Position numbers and translations under genes: made by a program. A stretch of 40,136 nucleotides of DNA from Nitrococcus sp. (GTDB lineage: Bacteria; Pseudomonadota; Gammaproteobacteria; Nitrococcales; Nitrococcaceae): positions 1-40,136 of the forward strand of contig JAKDMQ010000003.1 of the NCBI GenBank assembly GCA_030452265.1, written 5' to 3'. Position 1 is the first letter of the stretch. The number at the start of each line of letters is the position of its first letter. Below the pieces are notes generated by a model. It was not told where the DNA came from. It did no database searches and was given only the letters and a program-made list of their open reading frames with translations. Positions 5,716-38,588 of the stretch are shown here, in pieces.

Positions 5716-7051
5716 TGCGCAGCGGCCTGGGATCGATCGGCTCGCCTTGCGGGACGTTAAGCGATGCCCGCCGGCGTGCCGCCGCGCGCTGGAGCAGCAC
5801 CGTAATCGTGTCGGAGACCACCTCGCGGCGCACACGTGTCTCGAACAGCAGGCTCTCGATCTCCTTGTCAAGCTCGGCGATCGCCGTATCGGCATGCTCG
5901 CGCGCGACCTCGGTGGCGTACACCTCCGGCACCTGGCGCCCCGAGAGTAGGAGCCGGCGAGCATAGAGCGCCTTCTCCACGGTGCGCGCGGTGCTGATCT
6001 CGGAGGCCAGCCGGCCGACGATGAGCCCTTGTTCGGTCGCCGGCATCTCGCGGATGGCCTCGATGACCTGGCGTGTGACGGCCACGCCTGGTGCGGTGAC
6101 GAGATCGAGGTTGGCGAGCGTCGGTGGCGTCGCACCGCTTACGAGGTTTGAAAGCTCGGCCGTCACCGTCGCCGACTCGCTGTAGAGCTTTGGCAGCAGA
6201 CCGGTGCCCGGGATGCTGTCCTTGCGGCAGGTATCGCAAGTGGTGACGATGTTCTCGCCAACCACGTCGACCACCCAAGCCCGTGCCGCGGCCGGGCTCG
6301 GCCAGATCTCGGAGAGTCGCGTGGCGGACGCCGCCGGCACCGGAGCCGACGAGGTGATCGGCCGGTTCATGTTGATGTTGTAGCCCGCCTGCACGAGGTC
6401 TCCGGTAAAGCGCAGCACGGGCTGCCCGGCGCCGCCGGCATGGCCGCCGATCCACGGCACGCCGTTGGCGCCGTTCGAGGCCTCGACCGATTGCTTCGCG
6501 GTCACCGCATCGTTGCCGCCTATCCCCATCTGCACCTTCCAATCGTTGCCCTTGGAGAGCGTGATGAGATCCGCGTACGGGTTCTTGCCCCTGGCAATCT
6601 CGGCCTCCATCTGCTCGCAGCTCTTGGTTGCAAGCTGCATGGTCTCTTCGGCTCTCAGCAGCGCGTTCTGAAAGAGATCGTAGAGGCCCGGGTTTGCCCG
6701 CTGCAGAATCAGCGCCGGCAGTGCGGCGATGGCCGAGGAGGCGGCGGCGGTCATCGCGTTCATCATGTTGTCGACGCCGGATTTGATGTCGTTCAAGGTG
6801 TGGGTGACCGCCAGCACCGGATCGAACTGGCCGCAGCTATAGCCGGCCCCGAGCTGGGCGGAACCGCCGAGGGTCACCGACACCACCGACGGGTTGGCCG
6901 GCGCTGAGACCGGCTTCGCGCCGCCGATCTCGTAGTACCAGAGACTGTCCTCGGTCGGCCCAACGGCTGCGTGCGCAGTAGGGACAGTCAGGAGCGCGAT
7001 CAAGATCGTGATCGCGGCATGCCGGGAGCTTCCGTGGCGCGGGTATGTCAT
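5699..7051 (-). CDS. ICE transfer protein, PFL_4711 family (TIGR03755)
   Basis: The start at 7051 (MTYPRHGSSRHAAITILIAL) overlaps the previous stop as ATGA and gives a signal peptide ending at TAHA; the longer frame from 7294 runs through the preceding gene. The mature protein of about 420 residues is periplasmic, with a Cys pair in VTTCDTCRKD and a C-terminal half rich in charged helices. It matches the PFL_4711 group of GI-type ICEs, thought to act like F-plasmid TraH in building the envelope-spanning channel. Order after the TraU-like gene and before traG is canonical. Confidence 0.88.
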   Translation of the reverse strand: MTYPRHGSSRHAAITILIALLTVPTAHAAVGPTEDSLWYYEIGGAKPVSAPANPSVVSVTLGGSAQLGAGYSCGQFDPVLAVTHTLNDIKSGVDNMMNAMTAAASSAIAALPALILQRANPGLYDLFQNALLRAEETMQLATKSCEQMEAEIARGKNPYADLITLSKGNDWKVQMGIGGNDAVTAKQSVEASNGANGVPWIGGHAGGAGQPVLRFTGDLVQAGYNINMNRPITSSAPVPAASATRLSEIWPSPAAARAWVVDVVGENIVTTCDTCRKDSIPGTGLLPKLYSESATVTAELSNLVSGATPPTLANLDLVTAPGVAVTRQVIEAIREMPATEQGLIVGRLASEISTARTVEKALYARRLLLSGRQVPEVYATEVAREHADTAIAELDKEIESLLFETRVRREVVSDTITVLLQRAAARRRASLNVPQGEPIDPRPLRNGRVQ

Positions 7052-9891: not shown

Positions 9892-10506
9892 ATGAAGGAC
9901 CGCGGATCCTACAAACTGGAGTTCCACCCTGTCCTGGATGGCCGCCCTTGCCCTTACGTAGTTGTGGAAGGGCCACTGGCGAAGCAGGTGGCTGGACTTG
10001 CCCTGATTCGAGAAGATTTGCAGGCCGTAAAGGCGGTCCTCGCTCGCATCGATCCTCATACTGAGGATTTCGTGGGAAACAAGGCGCTCCTCTTCGGCGC
10101 CGTCTCGCTCTACGGAAAATGCTTTACCCAGGCCGACGGTAGAGGCGTCAAGCTGGACCCAAAGCACGTTTTTGCAAACAGCGATGAGCGCGAAAGCCAT
10201 GATCGGCTGATACAGTTGCGTCACGAGTACGTCTCTCACGGCGGCAAGGCCAGAGAAGAACAATTAAAGATTATCCTTCTCCTTGATCCGGACGACACGA
10301 ACAAGCGTTTCCGTGGCCTAGTTGGGCACGGAGCCTCAGCGCACGGTCTTGACCAGCAGGCGCGTGACGAGTGCCTTGCGACAGTGAGCCATGTAGAGGC
10401 ATATGTGGATCGAGCCTTGAAGAGGGCAACTGAAACTTTGTCGACCAAGTTGGTCGCTGCTGGCGAAAACTGGGCGTATGAGCATGCAATCTGGCCAGGT
10501 GCCTGA
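9892..10506 (+). CDS. Unrecognised cargo protein with HEPN-like R-x5-H motif
   Basis: The frame opens at a TTG (9796), but ATG 9892 (MKDRGSYKLEFHPVLDGRPC) with AGG upstream is the more natural start, giving 204 residues. I do not recognise the whole protein. From about residue 68 it is helical, and LIQLRHEYVSHGG (106-118) resembles the R-x4-6-H catalytic motif with nearby basic residues in HEPN-fold nucleases, in particular the AbiU2-like pattern of an LR-x(n)-AH helix after an aromatic-rich helix (LYGKCFTQ). HEPN proteins often act as RNases in toxin or antiphage systems. That is inference from one motif. It follows the GST gene after 152 bases; the two may share a transcript. The 170 bases after it hold nothing recognisable. 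Confidence 0.6.
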   Translation: MKDRGSYKLEFHPVLDGRPCPYVVVEGPLAKQVAGLALIREDLQAVKAVLARIDPHTEDFVGNKALLFGAVSLYGKCFTQADGRGVKLDPKHVFANSDERESHDRLIQLRHEYVSHGGKAREEQLKIILLLDPDDTNKRFRGLVGHGASAHGLDQQARDECLATVSHVEAYVDRALKRATETLSTKLVAAGENWAYEHAIWPGA

Positions 10507-10676
10507 CTGGCCGCCCCGTTTCCTGCCGTTGCGCGGCCGCGGTGCAGCGGTGACCCCGGCGCCGTCCGCCACGGGCAATGGTCCGCTTCAGATCGCCGCA
10601 GAACATTACCCCCTTCGAGCCCGAATGATCTCTCAATGTTTGCAGGTAACCGGATCGTCCTACAGACCGGACCCGT

Positions 10677-13433
10677 TCACTCGCTCGGCCCGGCCGCGAT
10701 CCGCTGCGCCACGATGTGAACCGCGTCGAGCTCCGTGCAGCCGCGCTCGCGCATGATCTCGGCGCGTTCGGCCTTCTCGTGCTTCTCGGTCATCGCCAGG
10801 GCCAGTGACAGGGGCGGCGGGACGCTGCGGAACAACGCTTCGATGTTATCTGCGAGCACGACTCCCTCGACGTACTTGCCGGGCTCTTTCCGGGCCGAGA
10901 GCAGGAGGCTTCGCTGCTCTTCGTTCAGATCCTTGAAGCGGGCGATTTGCTCGACCTCTTCCTTCGGCATGACGAGGCAGAGCCACCACTCCATCATGTT
11001 GAGCATCTTACGGCTCGCGTCCGGGAAGTCTTCGAGGTTCTGCGTCGCGATCCAGAACCAGGCGCCGAGCTTGCGCCACATCTTGGTGATCTTGACGACG
11101 TAGCGCGCGAGCAGCGGATTGGTCGTGATGATGTGCCCCTCGTCGGTGACGACGAGCGTTGGGCGCGCATCGCTCTGATGGCGCTCCACCAGATCGTTGA
11201 TGTGGCTCATCATAGAGATGTAGGCCACGGTCAACTGATCCTCGTAGCCTTCGCGGGCGAGCAGGCCCATCTCGAGTATGGTCACGTCGGCGGCTGGCCA
11301 GGGCTTGCCGGGCCGGTCGAAGAACTCTCCCGCCAGTCCCGAACAGAAAAGCGCCATGGCGTCACCCATCTCGAGTGCGCGGTTGCGCCGATGCTCCGGC
11401 AGACCCATGTCACGGCCGATGCTGTTGAGCGCCGCGACGACGTCCCGGGTGAGCACCTGGTCACGCGCTTGGTCAGCGACGCTCTTCGCGGCGAGCAGAA
11501 TGGCGTTTCGGATCAGCAAGCGGTCGGCGCGGGTCATGCGAGCGTCCTCGCGCTCATCACCGCCGGTGATCATGATGCGCGCGGCGATCTCCATCTCGCC
11601 GAGGATGTCGCGCCCTCGGCCCTCGGCGTCTTCGTCCTCATCCTCGTTCTGCCCCAGTGCTTCGGGATCGGTGACGAGCTTCACCTGCCGGTCTTTGTCC
11701 CGCAGCCGCAGCGCATCGGCAAACGGCGGCAGGCTCACGTCGGCGCACGGATTGAGCGTGACCTGGTTGACCTCGAGCCCATGGCTTGCGAAGTGCTGTC
11801 CGAGCAGCGAGAAGGAACCGCCGGCCTCGATGATGAAGATCCGTGGCCGATGGATCGCCGCCATCTGCTGCAGCAGGTAGACCAGCAACGCCGATTTGCC
11901 GGCGCCGGTCGGGCCGAGGATCAGCATGTGCGCGTTCTTCTTGCGATCTGCCCGGTGCAAGGGGTCGAATACCAGAGGCTCCGCGCCCCGGTTGAAGAAC
12001 ACCAACCCCGGATTGCCGGTGCCGCGTGAGCGGCCATAGAGCGGCAAGAGGTTTGCGATGTGCCGTGAGAACACCAAGCGCGAGCGGCGACTCACCCGAT
12101 CGAGGCGCGCATCGTAGGCCATCGGCAGATTGCGCAGATAGCTGTCGAGCGCGAGCAAGTCCGCCTCGCGGGCGATCGGCTGCAGGCCATTGGGCAGCAG
12201 CAAGGCGTTCAACTGGTTGACGTTGGTTCGCAGCGCCGCGAGGTCATCGCCGCGGACGTAGAAGGCCAGTTGTAAGGGATAGAGCTTGTTGCCGCTCGCC
12301 ATCTCGCGTTCTACTGCTGTGGCGTCCTCGCGCGTCAGTTCGGCTTGCGCGGAGTCGCCCACCGCGGCCCGTTTGATCAGGCCGATGTGATTGCGCACGA
12401 GGTCCTGGGGCTTCACGGTAAGGGTGAGCACCATCACGGTATGCTCGGGCAGCCGATCGAAGAGCGAGAACACGTGATCGCCCGACGCCCGTTCCGCAGT
12501 CATGTGACCGATATCGGGTGCGCGTCGCAGGCCCTGTACCGTGACGAGCGTGTGCGGAAGGCCATCGAGCCACCAGGTGGCTGATCCGTTATCGGAGCGA
12601 GGCATCGAGAGTGTGAGCGCCTCCCCGAGGTCCGCGCCGAACGGCAGATCCTTATCGCCCGGGTACGGTGCGGCAGTGAGGAGTTGCTCGACATCGCCCT
12701 GCGCGCAACCGGGACGTGGGTTGAACCAAGGCAGCAGCCAGCGGTAGAGATCTTCTCCCGAACCGCGCCGGCAGCGGATGCCGGCCGCGGCAAGCGCCGC
12801 CGTGCACTTGGTGGCGACGTCGTTGAGATCGGCTTCCACCTCGAGCGCGCTCGGCAGACGGCCTCGCGCGTTCAGCCGCCGATAGAGCGCCGCTCGGACG
12901 CGCCTCACCTGGCCGCGCCAGAGCGTGCCAGTCAGGGCGGAGTCCTCGAACAGACCGCCTGGCCGGCTGATGCGCTCGCAATGCGCCTTAAGCAACGACA
13001 AGTAATGGCGCGTGTACGCACTCGCTTTTGCTTGCACCGGCACATAGGCCTCGACCTCACGCAGCAGGTCAGAGAGGCTCGGCTCGTCCTGCACATAGAG
13101 CTGTAGGATCCAGGGTGCATCGTCGAGCTCGGGGATCGCTTCGGTGATCGCGGTCTCAATCGCATCGCGCAGCTCCGCCATAAAGGCCGGCGTGCGTGCC
13201 TCGGTGCCGGCCGGTGTCAGCTCGAACAGCGCGCCTGCGCTCACGCCGTCCTCGAGCAGGAAGCAACGGCTATCCGGCAGATACTCGACCCAGGGCAGGA
13301 AGTCGGTGAACGACGGCGGCCGGGCGTACAGCGCCTTCACCTCACGCGTCGTGAGTGGGCGCGCCTCAGTCGTGGACGCCGTTGATGCCGGCATCGCGGC
13401 TGGCTTCGACGCGGTGATGGAGTACCAGGCCAT
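10677..13433 (-). CDS. traC: Conjugative transfer ATPase TraC/VirB4, PFL_4706 family
   Basis: This 918-residue cytoplasmic ATPase energises pilus assembly and substrate transfer. Walker A is GPTGAGKS (about residues 507-514) and Walker B is TLVVTDEGH (about 759-767). The N-terminal 450 residues match the TraC/VirB4 N-terminal domain. A short acidic stretch (NEDEDEDAEGRG, about 596-607) breaks the ATPase domain and is probably a loop. Size and motifs fit the PFL_4706 group (TIGR03744). It begins 2 bases after the TIGR03751 lipoprotein stop and is the last gene before the plus-strand cargo. Confidence 0.93.
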   Translation of the reverse strand: MAWYSITASKPAAMPASTASTTEARPLTTREVKALYARPPSFTDFLPWVEYLPDSRCFLLEDGVSAGALFELTPAGTEARTPAFMAELRDAIETAITEAIPELDDAPWILQLYVQDEPSLSDLLREVEAYVPVQAKASAYTRHYLSLLKAHCERISRPGGLFEDSALTGTLWRGQVRRVRAALYRRLNARGRLPSALEVEADLNDVATKCTAALAAAGIRCRRGSGEDLYRWLLPWFNPRPGCAQGDVEQLLTAAPYPGDKDLPFGADLGEALTLSMPRSDNGSATWWLDGLPHTLVTVQGLRRAPDIGHMTAERASGDHVFSLFDRLPEHTVMVLTLTVKPQDLVRNHIGLIKRAAVGDSAQAELTREDATAVEREMASGNKLYPLQLAFYVRGDDLAALRTNVNQLNALLLPNGLQPIAREADLLALDSYLRNLPMAYDARLDRVSRRSRLVFSRHIANLLPLYGRSRGTGNPGLVFFNRGAEPLVFDPLHRADRKKNAHMLILGPTGAGKSALLVYLLQQMAAIHRPRIFIIEAGGSFSLLGQHFASHGLEVNQVTLNPCADVSLPPFADALRLRDKDRQVKLVTDPEALGQNEDEDEDAEGRGRDILGEMEIAARIMITGGDEREDARMTRADRLLIRNAILLAAKSVADQARDQVLTRDVVAALNSIGRDMGLPEHRRNRALEMGDAMALFCSGLAGEFFDRPGKPWPAADVTILEMGLLAREGYEDQLTVAYISMMSHINDLVERHQSDARPTLVVTDEGHIITTNPLLARYVVKITKMWRKLGAWFWIATQNLEDFPDASRKMLNMMEWWLCLVMPKEEVEQIARFKDLNEEQRSLLLSARKEPGKYVEGVVLADNIEALFRSVPPPLSLALAMTEKHEKAERAEIMRERGCTELDAVHIVAQRIAAGPSE

Positions 13434-18924: not shown

Positions 18925-19662
18925 TTAGAGGTACTTCTTGAACGTACTCGCCGTGACCGCCACGCTGAGCGCAAACAGCGCCGCAAACGGCAGCACGACA
19001 AAGCTCGGGTGCAGGCTAATCGGCAGCGCCAGATAGATCACCCAGGTGAGCACCAGTAGCGGCAACGCCGAGCGCTTCGCCCAGTGGTAGACGAAAGAGC
19101 TCTCGCGTCCCCCGCCCCATCGGCGAAGATCCCGCTTTACCAGGCCGTCGACGATGGCGACCAGAGTGAACATCACAAACACCGGCATGGCGAGTACCAG
19201 CACAGCGAGCCGCACCGAGAAGACCTGCGTCACCTGCACCGCGGCCAGCACGTATTCGGCAACGGGCTTAAATACGGCATAAAGTCGCGGGCGCAGCCCC
19301 GACTCGCCGGCGGCCGGCGCCCGGCCGACCCATTCGATGAAATCGGCGATCCGGGTGAGTTCGAACAGGACGTAGTAGGTTCGATCGACGACGGTCTTGG
19401 TGAACCGGGCGGGATCCGAACTGACCAGGCTGCGACCGAAGTCGGCCTGCAGATAGCCGAGCTCGGCGGCGAGCATCTCCCGGCTGTGGTCAAGCCCCTG
19501 ATCCGGCCACCAGAAGGTCATTCCCACCCATTCGGTGAGCACCGAGAACACCAGCGAGAGCAGGAGCCACTTGATCCCATGGGCGAGCGTCGTGAGAGAC
19601 CATGAGATGAGTCCTTGCCGGAAATCCCGGCGTCTGGGGTCGGTGCTTGCCTCAGCCACCAT
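18925..19662 (-). CDS. ICE membrane protein, PFL_4697 family (TIGR03747)
   Basis: The start at 19662 (MVAEASTDPRRRDFRQGLIS) overlaps the traD stop by 11 bases; the frame upstream to 19818 only shadows traD. The 245-residue protein has an N-terminal membrane segment (HGIKWLLLSLVFSVLTEW) and further segments towards the C-terminus (LAVLVLAMPVFVMFTLVAIV, LLVLTWVIYLALPISL, VVLPFAALFALSVAV). Matches TIGR03747, which resembles the TraQ/TraF-like partners of TraD in GI systems. It ends before the TA promoter, so the TA pair is inserted immediately after it. Confidence 0.9.
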   Translation of the reverse strand: MVAEASTDPRRRDFRQGLISWSLTTLAHGIKWLLLSLVFSVLTEWVGMTFWWPDQGLDHSREMLAAELGYLQADFGRSLVSSDPARFTKTVVDRTYYVLFELTRIADFIEWVGRAPAAGESGLRPRLYAVFKPVAEYVLAAVQVTQVFSVRLAVLVLAMPVFVMFTLVAIVDGLVKRDLRRWGGGRESSFVYHWAKRSALPLLVLTWVIYLALPISLHPSFVVLPFAALFALSVAVTASTFKKYL

Positions 19663-21778
19663 GGTCGGGCTCGCGCGGCACCGGAATATCCGTATCGGCG
19701 ATGGCCTGCCACCAGGTCTCCCGGGCCCGGTACCAGTGGTCGTTGGTGATGTAGCTGCGCTCCATCTCGTTGGCGATGGCCGCGAGGTCTGCCGGCATCG
19801 CCCGGTCGGCGCTGTCATCGGGTAGCGGCATGCGCACTTTCCACAGACGCCCGCCCTCGAGCAGGGCGAAGGCCTGACCCTTGGGCAACCGCACGAGCTC
19901 CGCTGGTGTCAACATCGCCACCTCGGAGACGCTGATGCGATCCTCGTTGCGCGATTGGAAGTCGACGCCCGATAGGGGTTCCGATGAGTCATTGACACCA
20001 GAAACGTTCATGAGCGTGAACACCTCGACGCGTGGCAACTGGTCGGTCAGCATCTCCGCCGTCGCAAGCTCTTTCACCCGCAGCATGATCAGGGTGTTGA
20101 AGTTGCCGGCCACTTGGCCTGCCTTGGCACGGCTGCCGATCCTCGCCTCCACGTCCGACCAGGTCTGAGTGTAGGCGGTCACTTGAAAGCCCGCGCCGCC
20201 GGCCTTGTTCAGGAGCGGCACGAACTCCTCGCCGATCAGCTCGTTGAACTCATCGGCGTGCATCGAGATCGTCGGCACGCGGTTCGGCCTCGGTGCCGAT
20301 GCGTCATCCGTCGGGTCGGCGACCCCGTGCTTGTAGATGTGGCCGGCCACGGAGACCAGGTCCGCGAACATGGAGTTGCCCACCGCGCTCGCCACGGTCG
20401 TGTCGGTCAGGGCATCGAGCCCGACATAGACGATGGCGTTGCGGCGGATCACCTCCAGCCACTCGAAGATCGGGCGGTTGTCGTCAGCGTTGAGATAATC
20501 CGGTGAGATGAGCTCGGCGATCTTGCCGGTGGTGAGCTTTTCCATCAGCGGGCCGACCGAGCTTACGATCTTGTCGAAGTAGGTCTTGTCGTACCGGAAC
20601 GCGGAGACGAGCCCGTCAAGCACCGGGTCGTAGAGGTCCTGCGCCTGCAGGTAGCGCATCAGGGCGATCGCCGCGCGATCTCGGCCCTTGAGCGCCGAGG
20701 AGAGATTGCGCTCGCTGACCTTGCCGGCGATGGCCTCGACCTCGGTTTTCCAGTTTGCCTCACCGAAGCGGCGCAGGTGCGCACGCGCGTACTCGACGAA
20801 CAGCGGTTCGATGTCGTTGATGTAGCGGCGGATCTGCTGATAGTCCGGCCGGCGCTCCAACGCCACCAGCGCCCGGGCGATGATGTTCACGAAGCGCCAG
20901 GCGAACTCCTTGAAGGCGGCCGAGTTGCCCTCGCTCGGCAACTGATTGGCGATACGGGTCGCGACTTCGGTGATGCGGGAGAAGCGGCCGATGGCGTTGT
21001 AGCGGGCCGACACCTCGGGGAAGCCGAGATGGAAGAGATAAAAGTCCTCGGCGCGGCCCGAGCGCTTCGCCTCGGCGTAGACGCGGCGAAGGAGGTCGGC
21101 ATCGCCCTTGGGATCGAAGACGATGACGACATCGCCACGGCGAATGTCTTGGGTAATGAGAATCTCGGCGAGCCGGGTCTTGCCGACCCGGGTGGTACCG
21201 AGCACCAGGGTGTGGCCGACGCGCTCGCCAAGATCCATCCAGACGTCCTGCTCGTTGGGTTCGACGGCATGCAGCGCCGGCGTGCCGCCGAGCGCCGGCA
21301 GGGGCTTCAGTGGATTCCACCAGCGGGGTTGGCGCAGCAGCCAGGCGAGGACACTGAGCCCCGCTACCGATTCCCAGGCGAGCTCTTTGCGCCGCGCCCA
21401 CCGATAGAGCGGACCCGGCTGCACATAGTGCTGCACTTCGGGGCGGAGTGTGTCGCGCAGGCGTTGGGTGTGGCGCTGAGTCCAGCGAAAGCCGCGCCCG
21501 AGAAAGAGCTTGTGACGGCTGAGCGGAATACGGTCCGCGCGCAGCTTATAAGTTGACAGGTGGCGCAGGTTGCGCTGGTAGCACAGCACTCGCAGGGCCT
21601 GCCGCGCGCGCACGAGCGCGACCGCAAACAACGCTCCCGCAGCCGCATTGGCGATGCCGGGGGGCATCATCAGCGCCCAGGGCGCAAGCAGCGCCATCGT
21701 GCCCGTCGCGGCCGCGACCAGCGCCGAGTAGAGTTCCACCGGCGGGCGCAGCAGCGCCTCGATGGGATGCGGGCTCAT
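19652..21778 (-). CDS. traD: Type IV coupling protein TraD (PFGI-1/SXT-type)
   Basis: This 708-residue hexameric DNA-translocating ATPase links the relaxosome to the secretion channel. It has two N-terminal membrane segments (about residues 17-40 and 45-58), Walker A GTTRVGKT (194-201) and Walker B VVIVFDPKGD (217-226), with the HADEFNELIG motif further on. GTTRVGKT in place of the GxxGxGKT consensus is usual in this TraD group. It overlaps PFL_4695 by 4 bases at its start. A coupling protein without a visible relaxase means that the relaxase gene, if present, lies left of the window or elsewhere. Confidence 0.93.
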   Translation of the reverse strand: MSPHPIEALLRPPVELYSALVAAATGTMALLAPWALMMPPGIANAAAGALFAVALVRARQALRVLCYQRNLRHLSTYKLRADRIPLSRHKLFLGRGFRWTQRHTQRLRDTLRPEVQHYVQPGPLYRWARRKELAWESVAGLSVLAWLLRQPRWWNPLKPLPALGGTPALHAVEPNEQDVWMDLGERVGHTLVLGTTRVGKTRLAEILITQDIRRGDVVIVFDPKGDADLLRRVYAEAKRSGRAEDFYLFHLGFPEVSARYNAIGRFSRITEVATRIANQLPSEGNSAAFKEFAWRFVNIIARALVALERRPDYQQIRRYINDIEPLFVEYARAHLRRFGEANWKTEVEAIAGKVSERNLSSALKGRDRAAIALMRYLQAQDLYDPVLDGLVSAFRYDKTYFDKIVSSVGPLMEKLTTGKIAELISPDYLNADDNRPIFEWLEVIRRNAIVYVGLDALTDTTVASAVGNSMFADLVSVAGHIYKHGVADPTDDASAPRPNRVPTISMHADEFNELIGEEFVPLLNKAGGAGFQVTAYTQTWSDVEARIGSRAKAGQVAGNFNTLIMLRVKELATAEMLTDQLPRVEVFTLMNVSGVNDSSEPLSGVDFQSRNEDRISVSEVAMLTPAELVRLPKGQAFALLEGGRLWKVRMPLPDDSADRAMPADLAAIANEMERSYITNDHWYRARETWWQAIADTDIPVPREPDHGG

Positions 21779-24468: not shown

Positions 24469-25425
24469 TTACTTTCCTAAATAAACCGTAGTGATCTGCT
24501 CGCGCTCATGACCGAGATCGCGGCTTATGAGAAGCCGTGCCTCACGATCGATAGCGCGCTGGTCTCGGCTCAACGAGGCCGAGGCCGGTCCGCCGGCGGC
24601 CGGCGCCTTCCAGCCCGTGAGCTCCTCGTAGCGTCCCTGTGCATAGGCGTGGCGCAGCCCGTGCAATTTCGAGAGCCCGGCGTTCGCCGTGTGTCGCTCG
24701 TAGACGCGCAGCTGCTGTCGGTAGTTGCGCTCGGCCGGGATCAGCGATCCGCGCCCTGCGAGACTATGGGCGCGATCGAGGATGGCGCGCTGCGCCGGGG
24801 TGCGAACGGGGATCTCGCGCGCCTTGCCGCCCTTGGTCCAGCTCTCCTTCAGCACCAGGTGATCGCCCCGGTCGGCATAGCTCGGCTGGAACTTGATGGC
24901 CTCCTCCCGTCTGAGCCCAAAGGCCTGCTGCAGCTCGAGACTCATCCGAACATGCACGTCCTTGATGCGATCGAGCGCCGCGCCATCGACCCGCCTTGCC
25001 TTCGACTGCGTACCGACGAAGCTCCGCTCGGGGATACCGTAGTGGTCATTCTGCCGGGCGATGACATTCGACCGGCCCACCTTCTGTGCCCACCAGCGCA
25101 ACGCCGCCATGCGGTTTTTGATGGTCCCAACGGAAAGCGCCTCGACCTGCCAGCGCTTCACCAGAGCCTCCACGTGTTTGGGCTTCAGCGACTGTGCGCC
25201 CATGCTCCGAAAGCCCAATCTGTGGAGTTGGTCCGCGATCAGTGAGAGCAGACGCTCGCGGTTGCGCTGGGTCGCGTAGCCGCCGTCGCGGTTGCGACGA
25301 GAAAGCTGCTTGAGTTGGTAGTTCAGGTCTCGCACGGTGTCAGGATGCTCTGGTAAGTGTTTCTGACCACCCGGCAGGCCGTAGCCGACCAGGTCCGGAA
25401 TCCGGCACGGGTCACGGGACACCAC
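24469..25425 (-). CDS. Second tyrosine recombinase-like protein (integrase domain)
   Basis: The frame opens at GTG 25425 and encodes 318 residues. An N-terminal SAM-like core-binding part (VRDLNYQLKQLSRRNRDGGY to IKNRMAALRWWAQKVGR) is followed by a catalytic domain with the full set: Arg in GLRREEAI, Lys in WTKGGKAREI, the HxxR box as LHGLRHAYAQ, His in LGHERE and Tyr in TTVYLGK. The Tyr is only four residues from the C-terminus. It is unrelated in layout to the P4-type integrase near guaA. Related ICEs carry such a protein near this spot; its job is not known to me and could be dimer resolution or cassette movement. Start codon choice is uncertain. Confidence 0.82.
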   Translation of the reverse strand: MVSRDPCRIPDLVGYGLPGGQKHLPEHPDTVRDLNYQLKQLSRRNRDGGYATQRNRERLLSLIADQLHRLGFRSMGAQSLKPKHVEALVKRWQVEALSVGTIKNRMAALRWWAQKVGRSNVIARQNDHYGIPERSFVGTQSKARRVDGAALDRIKDVHVRMSLELQQAFGLRREEAIKFQPSYADRGDHLVLKESWTKGGKAREIPVRTPAQRAILDRAHSLAGRGSLIPAERNYRQQLRVYERHTANAGLSKLHGLRHAYAQGRYEELTGWKAPAAGGPASASLSRDQRAIDREARLLISRDLGHEREQITTVYLGK

Positions 25426-25824
25426 TCCCGATCAACCTGAAGATGCCTGATTGCAGGCAACACCGGTTTTCCCCTGTGGAGGATAGGTCCGGTGCGAACC
25501 AACGGGCCCGTTGCGGGCCGAGCTTTGAGTACGCATCACCTCCTATTCGATGTGCTTGGGTTGAAGAAATGGATTGGCTTGACTCAGCAACACCTCGGTT
25601 GAGTGGGGCGAAAGGGACTTTCGCGGGGTTGTAAGAACGCTCGCCGCTGCCTTGCGGCAGTCGGTTCGAGCGGATCTGAAACGACGGGCAAAAGCCTGTC
25701 GATCGAGTCGACCGAACGGTCGATGACTTGGACGATGGACCGACGGCCGCTCGGCCGGCGCGCTGGATCCGGTCCTTGGCGCGCATGCCCGATTCGACGA
25801 GACGTCGAGGGTGGGCGACCCTTT

Positions 25825-25857
25825 GCCACTGAGCCGCAGTGGCCACGGATAAATCGG
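25825..25857. repeat. Repeated hairpin with conserved flank, copy 1
   Basis: GCCACTG-AGCCG-CAGTGGC forms a perfect 7-base-pair stem, followed directly by CACGGATAAATCGG. A second copy lies at 28057-28090. In that copy one base pair of the stem is changed on both sides (C-G to T-A), so pairing is kept. The flank CACGGATAAA is identical. Function unknown. Confidence 0.65.
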
Positions 25858-26218
25858 TCGTGGGCGGCAGTCTACGAACGCGTCATTCGCGCGTCATCGG
25901 GAAAGTCGGCTCTGGCGAGGCGTCGATTACGGCAGCGCCACCCGCGTCACTACCCCGCTGCGCTCGCTAGTGACACGGGCGGCGTCGCGGCGTGGCAGCC
26001 CTGGCGCCAGGCGTTCGCCTGTCACGGGGCTGCAGCAAGACAATCTCGCGGGTCATTGGCGCGGCTTCACCTGCCCACAGGGGTCCACAGGCCGCGCGCA
26101 GCGCGCGCCCGCCCTTGGCTGCGCGAGTGAGAGGACTCGCTTTGCCGTGGCAGGCAGGGCCTGTGGACTCTGTGGACAGCTGATTTGCAAGTGCGTGCCG
26201 GCTTCGAGCGGCCCATGG

Positions 26219-26243
26219 GCGATTATTACAGTGTAATAATCGC
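26219..26243. promoter_or_regulatory. 25-base perfect AT-rich palindrome, copy 1
   Basis: The 12-base arm GCGATTATTACA and its exact reverse complement flank one central G. It lies 110 bases after the DUF6573 stop, at the edge of the gene-free region. A near-identical copy lies at 30508-30529. The AT-rich symmetrical core in GC-rich DNA suggests a binding site for a dimeric regulator or partition protein encoded by the element. Confidence 0.6.
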
Positions 26244-26352
26244 CCGCGGCTGGATCTCAGTGGATCACCCGACAGATTCGGGGCGCTTGAAAAGATGGGC
26301 GCCACTTTTACCCAAGTGGCCAGGGAGAAGATGCCGGTACCGGCCGAGGTGG

Positions 26353-27920: not shown

Positions 27921-28056
27921 CGCCAACCCTCTCGGGCGCACATCCCCGGCAGGGTGGGAGTAGAGGCGAGATCGCAAACGAACTCTGCTGGGCTGGCACC
28001 GTTGCCTCGCGGCGCAGGTGTGCGCATCGGTTTCACAGCCCGACGATGCATCGGCT

Positions 28057-28090
28057 GTCACTGAGACCGCAGTGACCACGGATAAAACCG
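28057..28090. repeat. Repeated hairpin with conserved flank, copy 2
   Basis: GTCACTG-AGACCG-CAGTGAC is followed directly by CACGGATAAAACCG. It matches the copy at 25825-25857 apart from one compensated base pair, one extra loop base and two flank changes. It lies just after the parM stop, between parM and the DUF3577 gene. A separate 10-base palindrome, CGATGCATCG, lies at 28044-28053. Confidence 0.65.
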
Positions 28091-30400: not shown

Positions 30401-30507
30401 GGCAATGCGCACTCGCTGTCCGCTGAACTTGGGCCACCATCAACGCATGGATGGGAGACGAGTTGGAGCGGGAATGCCCGCACGCGGCGTCGTGCTTCCG
30501 GGGGAGA

Positions 30508-30529
30508 ATTATTACAGTGTAATAATCGC
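30508..30529. promoter_or_regulatory. AT-rich palindrome, copy 2
   Basis: The 9-base arms ATTATTACA and TGTAATAAT flank a central G, and the CGC that follows is the same as in copy 1 (26219-26243). The two copies share 22 consecutive positions. It lies 17 bases beyond the STY4528 stop, in the gap before the PFL_4669 gene. It is probably a binding site of an element-encoded regulator or partition protein. Confidence 0.6.
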
Positions 30530-34352: not shown

Positions 34353-35030
34353 ATGAAGCGAAGGCATGAGGCGATGCGGCTGAGCAATCTCGAGCTCCTG
34401 GTTGCCGAGGCCGGATCGGCTGCCGCGCTTGCCCGCCTCGCCAATACGAGCGAGTCCTACTTGAGTCAGATTCGCAACCAGCTCACCACGCCGAAGGGAA
34501 CGCCACGCGGCGTCGGTGACGATCTGGCGACGAAGCTCGAGCGGGCCATGAGCAAGCCAAACGGATGGATGGATGAATCTCATGAACTGGTCACGGAAGA
34601 TCAGGCCATATTCAACGCCGAACCCGGTCCTGAGGTCCGCGGCTTGCACCCGCTGATCTCATGGGTGCAGGCCGGAGGATGGGTGGAAATCGCGGGCAAC
34701 TTCGAACTTGGTGATGCCGAGGACCTGTTGCCGTGTCCGGTCCGGTGTAGCCGCGAAACGTTCGTGCTAAGGGTGCGCGGGGAAAGCATGGAGCCGAAAT
34801 TCCACGATGGCGACCTGATCTTCGTTGATCCCCAGGTCACCACGGTCAGCGGCCGCTACGTCGTGGTTCGCTTAGAGGACTCCCACGAGGCGACCTTCAA
34901 GCAGTTGATCATCGAAGAAGGGCGTCAGTACCTGAAAGCCCTTAACCCCGACTGGCCTCACCGCATCATCGAGGTGAACACCGATGCCACGATATGCGGC
35001 GTCGTCGTGTTCAAGGGCGAGGTGGTGTGA
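34353..35030 (+). CDS. CI/LexA-type repressor with S24 peptidase domain
   Basis: From ATG 34353 the protein has 225 residues. The N-terminal helix-turn-helix covers NLELLVAEAGSAAALARLAN and SESYLSQIRNQ. A cleavable hinge VQAGGW (Ala107-Gly108) follows, then the S24 domain with catalytic Ser145 in RGESMEPKF and Lys183 in TFKQL. This is the full set for RecA-stimulated self-cleavage, so DNA damage should lift repression of the divergent parB operon and of alpA, leading to excision and transfer. A later ATG at 34377 is possible. Confidence 0.9.
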   Translation: MKRRHEAMRLSNLELLVAEAGSAAALARLANTSESYLSQIRNQLTTPKGTPRGVGDDLATKLERAMSKPNGWMDESHELVTEDQAIFNAEPGPEVRGLHPLISWVQAGGWVEIAGNFELGDAEDLLPCPVRCSRETFVLRVRGESMEPKFHDGDLIFVDPQVTTVSGRYVVVRLEDSHEATFKQLIIEEGRQYLKALNPDWPHRIIEVNTDATICGVVVFKGEVV

Positions 35031-35138
35031 ACGTACTCGCTTACTGCGTGAACCGAGGTAGGAAGACCTTAGGCGGGTACCGGTGTCGTGAATGCATCGC
35101 TCACGGCGCGTCTCGCTAATCAAGTCCGGCAATCCTGA

Positions 35139-35221
35139 TTGACATTTGCTGGCCCAGCAAAGTGCTTATCATTTTGCTAAACATTCCACCTTTGTCAAAA
35201 AAGTTCGCACCGTGCTAATGT
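35139..35221 (+). promoter_or_regulatory. alpA promoter region with operator motifs
   Basis: A promoter TTGTCA (35192-35197), 18 bases, TAATGT (35216-35221) is overlapped by TGCTAA (35213-35218), just as in the Cro-like promoter (both read GCTAATGTC). A second TGCTAA lies at 35175-35180. Upstream, a consensus TTGACA (35139-35144) is followed by the palindrome TTTGCTGG-C-CCAGCAAA (35145-35161). The region is AT-rich compared with its surroundings. The shared motif suggests control by the S24 repressor. Confidence 0.6.
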
Positions 35222-35281
35222 CGATGGCATTGCACAGTCTGAACCCCGGGGTCTGCATTGTGCAGGGACAGGAGAGAATCG

Positions 35282-35527
35282 ATGGACGAAGGATACCGAA
35301 CCCTGGCGAGAAAGACACTCATCAATCGGAAGACTCTGCTGGCTATGATCCCGCTGTCGGAACGCTCCATTTTCAACATGGAGAAGCGCGGAGACTTTCC
35401 ATGCCGCATCGCACTCACAAGCCGTAACGTCGCCTGGGACCTGGCCGAAGTGGAGGAATGGATCGAGTCGAGAAAGGAATCCGGAGCACAGGCGGCGCGG
35501 CCTGGCGCTAGTGACGTCGCCCGATAG
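35282..35527 (+). CDS. alpA: AlpA-family regulator (putative excision/integrase control)
   Basis: ATG 35282 has AGGAG 7 bases upstream. The 81-residue protein has the AlpA/MerR-like winged helix: TLINRKTLLAMIPLSERSIF followed by NMEKRGDFPCRIAL and NVAWDLAEVEEWIESRK. AlpA-type proteins activate integrase genes or act as excisionases in P4-like elements. Here it is convergent with the integrase gene, overlapping it by 20 bases at the 3' ends, so direct promoter activation is less simple; an excisionase role at the AATACCATG boxes is possible. Confidence 0.82.
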   Translation: MDEGYRTLARKTLINRKTLLAMIPLSERSIFNMEKRGDFPCRIALTSRNVAWDLAEVEEWIESRKESGAQAARPGASDVAR

Positions 35528-37013: not shown

Positions 37014-38588
37014 TCATTCCCACTCGATCGTGGCTGGTGGTTTGCCGGATATGTCATAGACAACCCGGGATATTCCCTCGGTTTCGTTGATGATCCGGCG
37101 CGAGACCTTTCCCAGTAGCTCATAAGGCAGATGGGCCCATTTCGCGGTCATATAATCGGTAGTCTCCACCGCTCGCAGCGCGATTACGTATTCATAGCGC
37201 CGCCCGTCTCCGGTGACACCCACGGACTTCACTGGCAGAAAGACCGCAAACGCCTGGCTGACTCGATCGTAGAGCTCGCAACGGCGCAACTCCTCGATAA
37301 AGATGGCATCCGCTTGGCGCAGCGCCTGCGCGTGTTCCTTGCGCACCTCACCCAGAATCCGCACGCCGAGACCCGGCCCTGGAAACGGATGGCGATAAAC
37401 TACGTCGGCGGGTAATCCGAGCTCCAGCCCGATGCTGCGGACCTCGTCTTTGAACAGTGTCTGCAGCGGCTCTAGCAATCGCAGGTTCATTTGCTCTGGG
37501 AGGCCACCGACATTGTGGTGCGACTTGATGAGCTGTGCCTTGCCAGTCTTAGCGCCGGCGGATTCGATCACATCGGGATAAATAGTGCCCTGGGCGAGCC
37601 AGGTAACGTCAAGCTTACTGGCTTCTTCCTCGAAGACCTCAATGAAGGTACGCCCGATGAGCTTGCGCTTATCCTCAGGGTCAACCACCCCCGCCAAGCG
37701 CGCGAGGAAGCGATCCTCGGCATTGACGTAGATCACCCGCGCGCCCATATGACGGACGAACGTCGCCATGACCTGCTTGCCCTCGTCGAGCCGCAGCAAG
37801 CCATTGTCCACGAAGACACATGTGAGCTGATCGCCGATCGCCTGCTGCAGCAAGGCGGCCAGCACCGAGGAATCAACGCCGCCAGATAGACCAAGCAGCA
37901 CGCTATCTCGACCCACCTGCTCCCGGATACGGCGGATACTGTGCTCGATGATGTTGCCGGCGGTCCATCGCCCCGAGCAGCCACAAATCTCACCAACGAA
38001 GCGCTGCAGTATTCGCTGTCCCTGGGGCGTGTGGGTCACCTCCGGATGAAACTGCAACCCATAAAAACGCCGCTCATCATCCCCAATGCCGGCAATGGGA
38101 GTGCTCTCGGTGCCGGCAATCACCTTGAAGCCGTCGGGCAGCACGCTGACCCGGTCGCCGTGGCTCATCCAGACATCCAGCAGGCCGTGCCCTTCGGCAT
38201 TAGTGTGGTCCTCGATACCGAGCAGCAGCCAAGAATGACCGCGCGCACGCACCTGCGCATAGCCAAATTCCTTTTGCGTGCTGGGCTCGACTCGTCCGCC
38301 AAGCTGCGTTGCCATCGCCTGCATGCCGTAACAAATACCAAGCACCGGCACCCCCAGTCGAAAGACGCTATCGGGGATGCGCGGCGCATTATCGATGTGC
38401 ACCGATTCCGGGCCGCCGGTGAGGATGATTCCCATGGGGGCAAACGCCTCGATCTCGCGCGCCGGCCAGTCGCAGGGGTGAATCTCGCAGTAGACGTTGG
38501 CTTGGCGAATGCGCCGGGCGATGAGCTGCGTGTACTGGGAGCCGAAGTCGAGGATGAGGATGCGATGGGCGTGGATGTCCTGGGGCAT
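37014..38588 (-). CDS. guaA: GMP synthase (glutamine-hydrolysing)
   Basis: The 524-residue enzyme converts XMP to GMP with ATP and glutamine. The N-terminal class I glutaminase domain has [16 protein letters not shown] and the nucleophile Cys in GICYGMQ, with the His-Glu pair in [10 protein letters not shown]. The ATP-pyrophosphatase domain has the P-loop [16 protein letters not shown], and the dimerisation domain ends PPATIEWE, the normal family end. So the ICE insertion at its 3' end left the coding sequence whole. The start follows guaB after 111 bases, as in a gammaproteobacterial guaBA operon. Confidence 0.97.

Follow-up and report, generated by a model that had tools for sequence, protein, structure and literature searches.

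A candidate oriT-RNA-relaxase module with a tyrosine recombinase gene in an ICE of Nitrococcus

Which part of an ICE could start its transfer when no match to the usual relaxases is found in the genome? This question is raised by a 40,136-nt stretch of Nitrococcus sp. DNA (hereafter the window), in which an ICE of the PFGI-1/TOL-TraD class adjoins guaA (37014-38588). Markers of the PFGI-1/TOL class were present, namely genes for TraD (TIGR03754), TraC (TIGR03744), the PFGI-1 ParB, STY4528 and PFL_4669. Read from right to left, the ICE comprises the integrase, ParB, DUF2857, STY4528, PFL_4669, a ParM-like gene, STY4534, radC and DUF6573, then a gene-free stretch, and then tyrR, PilL2, TIGR03759, a transglycosylase, DUF2859, TraD and the T4SS genes. 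A direct repeat of the guaA 3' end, as a sign of the other ICE end, was not found within the first 12 kb. Across the 419 contigs of the genome, no match was obtained to TraI_2 (PF07514), TIGR03760, Relaxase (PF03432), TrwC (PF08751) or MobA_MobL (PF03389), these negatives assuming a complete assembly (completeness 95.66%, tool estimate).

The original prediction had taken the gene-free stretch at 25426-26352 for an origin, either oriT or oriV. The oriT guess is well supported by our comparison; no evidence for oriV emerged from it. We consider it probable that the stretch is an oriT-RNA-relaxase mobilization module of the ICE, replacing TraI. The present analysis contributes protein homology, conserved catalytic residues, a conserved inverted repeat, RNA covariation and exclusivity toward TraI; oriT function, relaxase activity of TyrR and a requirement for the RNA are predicted by analogy with SGI1. 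The features concerned are collected in Table 1.

Table 1. Positions in the window of the module, its parts and related features of the same ICE.
Feature	Position	Strand	Basis or remark
TraD coupling protein (conj_TOL_TraD), same ICE	19652-21778	-	TIGR03754, 1041 bits
tyrR, candidate MpsA-type tyrosine recombinase relaxase, 288 aa	24469-25335	-	PF12834 and PF12835
Noncoding block between DUF6573 gene and tyrR	25336-26352	-	conserved part ~25336-26188
3' RNA domain, six helices, ending in AACACTTACC (25361-25352)	25349-25483	-	alignment and covariation
RNA element copy 1, hairpin GGCCACUG..CAGUGGC	25805-25856	-	model R2, E 1.3e-6; A5
-10-like hexamer TAGACT, consensus CTATACTG	25869-25874	-	alignment A1; between inverted repeat and RNA part
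Candidate oriT core, GCCGCCCGTGTCACTA - 15 nt - TAGTGACGCGGGTGGC on - strand	25936-25984		inverted repeat
~105-nt stem	26078-26182	-	arms ~26078-26093 and 26158-26182; three TGTGGA/TCCACA copies (26084, 26162, 26171)
29-bp palindrome GGGCGATTATTACAGTGTAATAATCGCCC, operator- or parS-like, copy 1	26217-26245		arms 26217-26230/26232-26245, 14 bp perfect
RNA element copy 2, between parM-like and STY4534 genes	27982-28089	-	model R2, E 3.7e-9
Palindrome copy 2, upstream of PFL_4669	30507-30527		1-mismatch copy of 21-bp core

The noncoding block and the tyrR gene

The gene adjoining the stretch was delimited anew. An alignment of relatives sets the start of tyrR at residue 31 of the annotated ORF, where nearly all loci aligned have an ATG, GTG or TTG ahead of an R-D-L-N-like stretch, so that the start was moved from 25425 to the GTG at 25335-25333 and a 288-aa protein was retained, about equal in length to its relatives. 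The gene-free stretch is therefore longer than had been noted, and it indeed holds no recognised gene. A longer tyrR, read from a strong SD near 25540, was rejected, as this SD lies in another frame and is not kept in all relatives, whereas the GTG at 25335 is conserved. Overlapping ORFs within the block (e.g., 25412-25846) were likewise discounted in view of its RNA-like folding and covariation.

The product of tyrR is related to MpsA of SGI1 (BLASTP 33% over 214 aa, E 4e-24; hhalign 99.4%), and PF12835 is matched by both proteins. Six catalytic residues (R142, K168, H225, R228, H276 and Y285) do not vary among 29 relatives, nor in an alignment of eight sequences including MpsA and plasmid relatives. 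For an AlphaFold model (pLDDT 88), the Foldseek hits were integron IntI, XerH and lambda integrase (14-16% identity). In the ICE, tyrR opens the run of transfer genes; the gene that follows it is pilL2, and mpsB is absent from the position directly after tyrR in the ICE. In more distant loci (L017, L020, L021, L023, L024 and L027), a weak tyrR-like match and a stronger one were observed in tandem, which may reflect duplication or splitting of the enzyme.

The genome scan yielded 80 relatives, those of the cultured Haliea salexigens and Sedimenticola selenatireducens among them, and the order ParB ... DUF6573, gap, tyrR, PilL2 ... TraD is repeated in many of them, TraD being present in 42 of these loci. 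A profile made from 36 DUF6573-tyrR gaps among them found the block upstream of tyrR in 74 of the 80; the loci with no match were L051, L076, L082, L108, L113 and L116, and in two of these, L051 and L076, hardly any upstream sequence is available. On the window, itself in the profile, the nhmmer match runs from 26188 to 25356 (E 1.5e-157), and E-values as low as 1e-187 were reached in relatives that built the profile. The block is still present at 20 of the 24 genome loci where tyrR is the sole ICE gene detected, and therefore belongs to tyrR. Between DUF6573 and the block, many relatives (L041, L045, L046, L064, L069 and others) have ~1-3 kb of additional DNA, so that this gap may be a cargo insertion point. 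In the window, a hairpin (26287-26333) directly follows the DUF6573 stop codon, and two genomes, from the same genus and the same order respectively, hold sequence matching the overlapping segment 26298-26352 at 87-90%.

The structural richness of the stretch, said in the original prediction to be unmatched, proved less exceptional than its conservation. Only two perfect inverted repeats with arms of at least 8 were counted, against 0-4 in the 927-bp tiles of the window (mean 1.3) and a shuffle mean of 1.25; with arms of at least 7, 11 were counted against a shuffle mean of 4.3 and a maximum of 10 (60 shuffles). The stretch is not the largest gene-free one either, since 34445-35507 covers 1063 bp against 1017 bp here. 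The reported TGTGGA repeat was recovered, as TGTGGA/TCCACA at 25475, 26084, 26162 and 26171; the last three positions lie in the ~105-nt stem that forms the 5' end of the conserved block and is weakly conserved beyond close relatives. The hairpin count alone is thus modestly above chance, while conservation, covariation and RNA folding energy are far above it, the folding energy having a z of -3.4 with none of 100 shuffles as good.

Inverted repeat, structured RNA and paired palindromes

Inverted repeats of the oriT kind are present a few hundred nt upstream of tyrR, where an oriT is predicted. In the plasmid relatives, the upstream DNA has in common an inverted repeat centred on GTCACT/AGTGAC, whose outer arms differ between loci yet remain complementary. 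Among the 103 loci with a tyrR match, six had less than 400 nt upstream, and the other 97 (75 genome loci, 21 plasmid or SGI1 loci and the window) were used to count this repeat. A perfect GTCACT/AGTGAC repeat of at least 9 bp was found in 64 of the 97 (51 genome, 13 plasmid), against 0.1 expected from dinucleotide shuffles. The window is not among these 64 because its own repeat is perfect over 7 bp, extending to 16 bp with two G.U pairs. The longest arms were those of Psychrobacter L132 (24 bp) and Acinetobacter L126 (23 bp), and alphaproteobacterial plasmids (L128, L135) carry the repeat too. In the Pasteurellaceae plasmids L119, L120 and L129-L131, the repeat test did not find the GTCACT core; L119 has a related repeat on CTGTCATTC. 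Elsewhere in the 1.29 Mb of compared sequence the repeat occurs twice, both times upstream of a family member. The first case is the own repeat of pA53P3, which lies upstream of tyrR via the circular junction, and the second, in a Salmonella plasmid (India; L124), lies ~330 nt before a second integrase-domain gene (10108-10992, minus strand), which thus has a GTCACT/AGTGAC repeat of its own.

Most of the stretch looks like structured RNA read toward the transfer genes, a feature overlooked in the earlier reading. The motif AACACTTACC sits 16 nt before the tyrR start codon in the window and 16-20 nt before it across relatives, and it precedes the start codon in 83 of the 97 loci against 0.3 expected. 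In the 3' domain that it closes (alignment A2, 50 sequences), 20 pairs were recognised, 15 of them with double changes, and 94.9% of cells were paired; none of 500 shuffles did as well, and sliding the structure gave at most 49.2%. This alignment excludes L047, L050, L074, L077, L113 and L116, near-identical rows, and loci that have little upstream sequence or no such motif; in one sequence selection, 55 of 60 were kept. Searched against 22 sources other than the window, the model of this domain (R1) matched L139 (E 2e-4), L122 (0.0064, two copies) and L121 (0.05), in each case directly upstream of tyrR, and more weakly (E 0.86-2.9) L124, L127, L128, L135 and another place in L121. UNCG-type loops in a 3'-domain hairpin likewise suggest RNA rather than DNA. 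The conserved -10-like hexamer, aligned in 44 sequences (A1), is a possible internal promoter.

A second RNA motif occurs twice per ICE, inside the block and before STY4534, the ICE replication protein gene. Its hairpin was found in all 32 parM-STY4534 gaps. The alignment of this element (A5) retained 27 of the 33 found, with the window, L039, L040, L091, L103 and the second copy of L041 excluded on length; it supports a four-helix structure with a crossing helix (94.1% paired, 0 of 500 shuffles as good), the crossing helix being the weakest (83%). The model R2 had no match in the plasmids or in SGI1. The copy before STY4534 could serve as a further binding site or have a regulatory function. 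No Rfam 15 family was found for any of these RNAs, either at gathering score or at relaxed E-values.

The palindrome reported with 25 bases exists, but it is 29 bp long. Its 21-bp core (around TTACASTGTAA) has two copies in the window, one ahead of the block and one ahead of PFL_4669 (zero expected), and in L045 and L046 both sites are present with different arms that are alike within one element. A role as part of oriT was rejected as the main reading, given the further copy ahead of PFL_4669 and arms that vary in concert inside an element. That the palindrome belongs to a pair of element-specific sites had been overlooked, and it is not obviously a part of the origin; the pair fits sites of an element-specific DNA-binding protein. 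In NAH7, ParB at a parS site is reported to activate conjugation genes (PMC12421886), and the ICE ParB may be the palindrome binder here.

Comparison with SGI1 and related systems

The closest described counterpart is the SGI1 module (mpsA-mpsB, oriT and sgm-sRNA). According to the published accounts, MpsA is essential for SGI1 transfer and proposed to be an atypical relaxase, and oriT spans 125 bp of GC-rich DNA containing inverted repeats (PMC6414798); a self-encoded RNA, sgm-sRNA, is genetically essential for transfer (PMC9299015) and is also named in PMC12217951 and PMC10954446; SGI1-like IMEs of Vibrio have MpsA and a conserved oriT structure (PMC8409611). In our data set, a 20-kb Salmonella contig (L123) encodes a 321-aa protein with R162, H247, R250, H251 and Y319, identified as MpsA of SGI1 because these residues match PMC6414798 exactly; one codon later stands a 98-aa ORF, as published for mpsB. 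With mob position 1 placed at the mpsB stop, we infer that the mapped oriT (mob 1570-1694) lies at ~5938-6062 of this contig and the sRNA core (1295-1572) at ~6060-6337. The CCCCGTCTCTGT/ACAGAGACGGGG repeat (5948-5985) falls within the mapped oriT. This SGI1 repeat, which resembles that of the window, is probably IR3 of PMC6414798; in that paper, deletion of an IR3 arm lowered transfer 40-fold and deletion of IR1 abolished it. The sequence TTTCACTTACCA (6297-6308) stands where the functional SGI1 sRNA was mapped to end on its 3' side, CACTTACC coinciding with this end.

The two modules have in common (for SGI1, PMC6414798 and PMC9299015) an MpsA-family tyrosine recombinase, a noncoding block, several hundred nt long, ahead of the enzyme gene with an RNA read toward it, inverted repeats of the oriT kind on the far side, and CACTTACC at the RNA 3' end. 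They differ in that SGI1 is an IME needing an IncC helper, whereas the module of the window belongs to an ICE that has no TraI and encodes a T4SS itself. SGI1 has mpsB, whereas the ICE does not and its TyrR has an N-terminal SAM-like domain of its own. The SGI1 sRNA was not matched by R1, R2 or the block nhmmer profile, and the two RNA sequences are not detectably homologous, only the CACTTACC motif being common; the link between them would lie in position and short motifs. Given the missing mpsB and the lack of detectable RNA homology, the module was not classed as an SGI1-type member. By analogy, we nevertheless take it to work like the SGI1 module.

Other tyrosine recombinase-like relaxases acting at an oriT are MobK of pIGRK and TcpM of pCW3 (MOBM) (PMC8152469, PMC12857230). 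PMC8152469 gives no significant mutual similarity between TcpM, MobK and MpsA, and MOBM is listed as the tyrosine-recombinase relaxase family in PMC12857230 and PMC11389934. ICEs of the PFGI-1/ICEclc/SPI-7 class with a MOBH TraI share with that of the window the genes for T4SS, TraD (TIGR03754), STY4528, STY4534, PFL_4669, PilL2 and ParB; they have TraI (TIGR03760), in place of which the window has tyrR and the noncoding block. Within the literature searched, subscription papers and preprints lying outside it, no description was found of the module in ICEs, of the shared repeat or of the RNA.

Competing readings and implications

The neighbourhood of TraD bears directly on the choice between readings. 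In 369 class genomes, 36 TraD loci were above cut-off; tyrR hits of about 106 bits or more were used, TraI hits include some below cut-off, and weaker hits were omitted. Counting loci that share one genome separately, although these are non-independent, tyrR only, TraI only, both and neither were found within 30 kb at 12, 12, 0 and 12 loci (Fisher p 0.0025), within 10 kb at 11, 9, 0 and 16 (p 0.034) and within 60 kb at 13, 10, 2 and 11 (p 0.040). A TIGR03760 match was absent from 20 of 23 genomes with a tyrR relative and present in three. The mapped origins of MOBH-type ICEs, proposed earlier as a yardstick, are thus unfit for this locus, its genome having no TraI_2/TIGR03760 relaxase and the tyrosine-recombinase and MOBH modules being mutually exclusive near TraD.

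Such mutual exclusion of tyrR and TraI speaks against the strongest alternative, which we regard as unlikely, namely that TyrR is a true site-specific recombinase serving multimer resolution or cassette exchange, with the repeat as a dif-like core; the noncoding block would then be a regulated recombination site and transfer would start elsewhere. The complete catalytic set of TyrR, its fold nearest to integron IntI, XerH and lambda Int, and the additional DNA between DUF6573 and the block in many relatives would suit such an enzyme, but transfer of SGI1 needs MpsA (PMC6414798) and four other relaxase families were not found in the genome. Plasmids bear on both sides. In PLSDB, 216 records encode a tyrR relative (E 1e-5), and in six plasmids (pSIO1, pA53P3, pA36P2, pAhaem5227a, pO237-3 and a Pleionea plasmid) tyrR stands directly before a gene for a VirD4-like coupling protein, three of these six proteins having been checked; a small ORF lies between the two genes in five of the six, and all six plasmids are typed non-mobilizable. 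This arrangement argues for a role in transfer, whereas a recombinase would be expected to fit the many other retrieved tyrR plasmids that have no coupling protein adjoining tyrR, as well as the plasmid inverted arms with a 4-8 bp spacer, which resemble recombination cores. Some tyrR plasmids additionally carry a MobA-type relaxase gene.

Less probable still is that the block serves the transfer operon only, as its long leader or riboregulator, with oriT elsewhere. A covarying RNA on the coding strand, the related RNA element ahead of STY4534 and the RNA folding z would agree with a leader, but the inverted repeat goes with tyrR onto plasmids and the block goes with tyrR to 20 of the 24 loci where no other ICE gene was detected, so that its partner is the enzyme and not the operon. 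That the block is the vegetative origin of the ICE we hold for very improbable, since, despite its hairpins and its position between STY4534/STY4528-type replication genes and transfer genes, no iteron-like direct repeats were found, and block and tyrR stand together in loci where no STY4528 gene was detected.

According to the mobilization module that we favour, TyrR, as a member of the MpsA family, would bind the GTCACT/AGTGAC repeat and nick there via Tyr285 (corrected numbering). The structured RNA, running from ~25860 to 25349 on the same strand toward tyrR, would assist assembly of the complex or its coupling, and the complex would be passed on to the TraD and T4SS that the ICE itself encodes. 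The module would in this way substitute for the MOBH relaxase TraI of related ICEs.

The presence of an enzyme and an RNA around the candidate oriT makes this finding more interesting than the original prediction stated. More tentatively, and with slightly less than even confidence, we suggest that MpsA-type relaxases, with a GTCACT/AGTGAC origin and a dedicated relaxosome RNA, are widespread, unrecognised conjugation starters that drive TraI-less ICEs, IMEs and many small "non-mobilizable" plasmids. If this is true, plasmid typing overlooks such modules, 140 of the 216 PLSDB plasmids with a tyrR relative being typed non-mobilizable. The conserved repeat and motif offer direct handles on the nick site and on the role of the RNA, both left open by the SGI1 papers. 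The ICE described here would then represent a self-contained class that starts conjugation by means of a recombinase-like enzyme and an RNA, with no classical relaxase.
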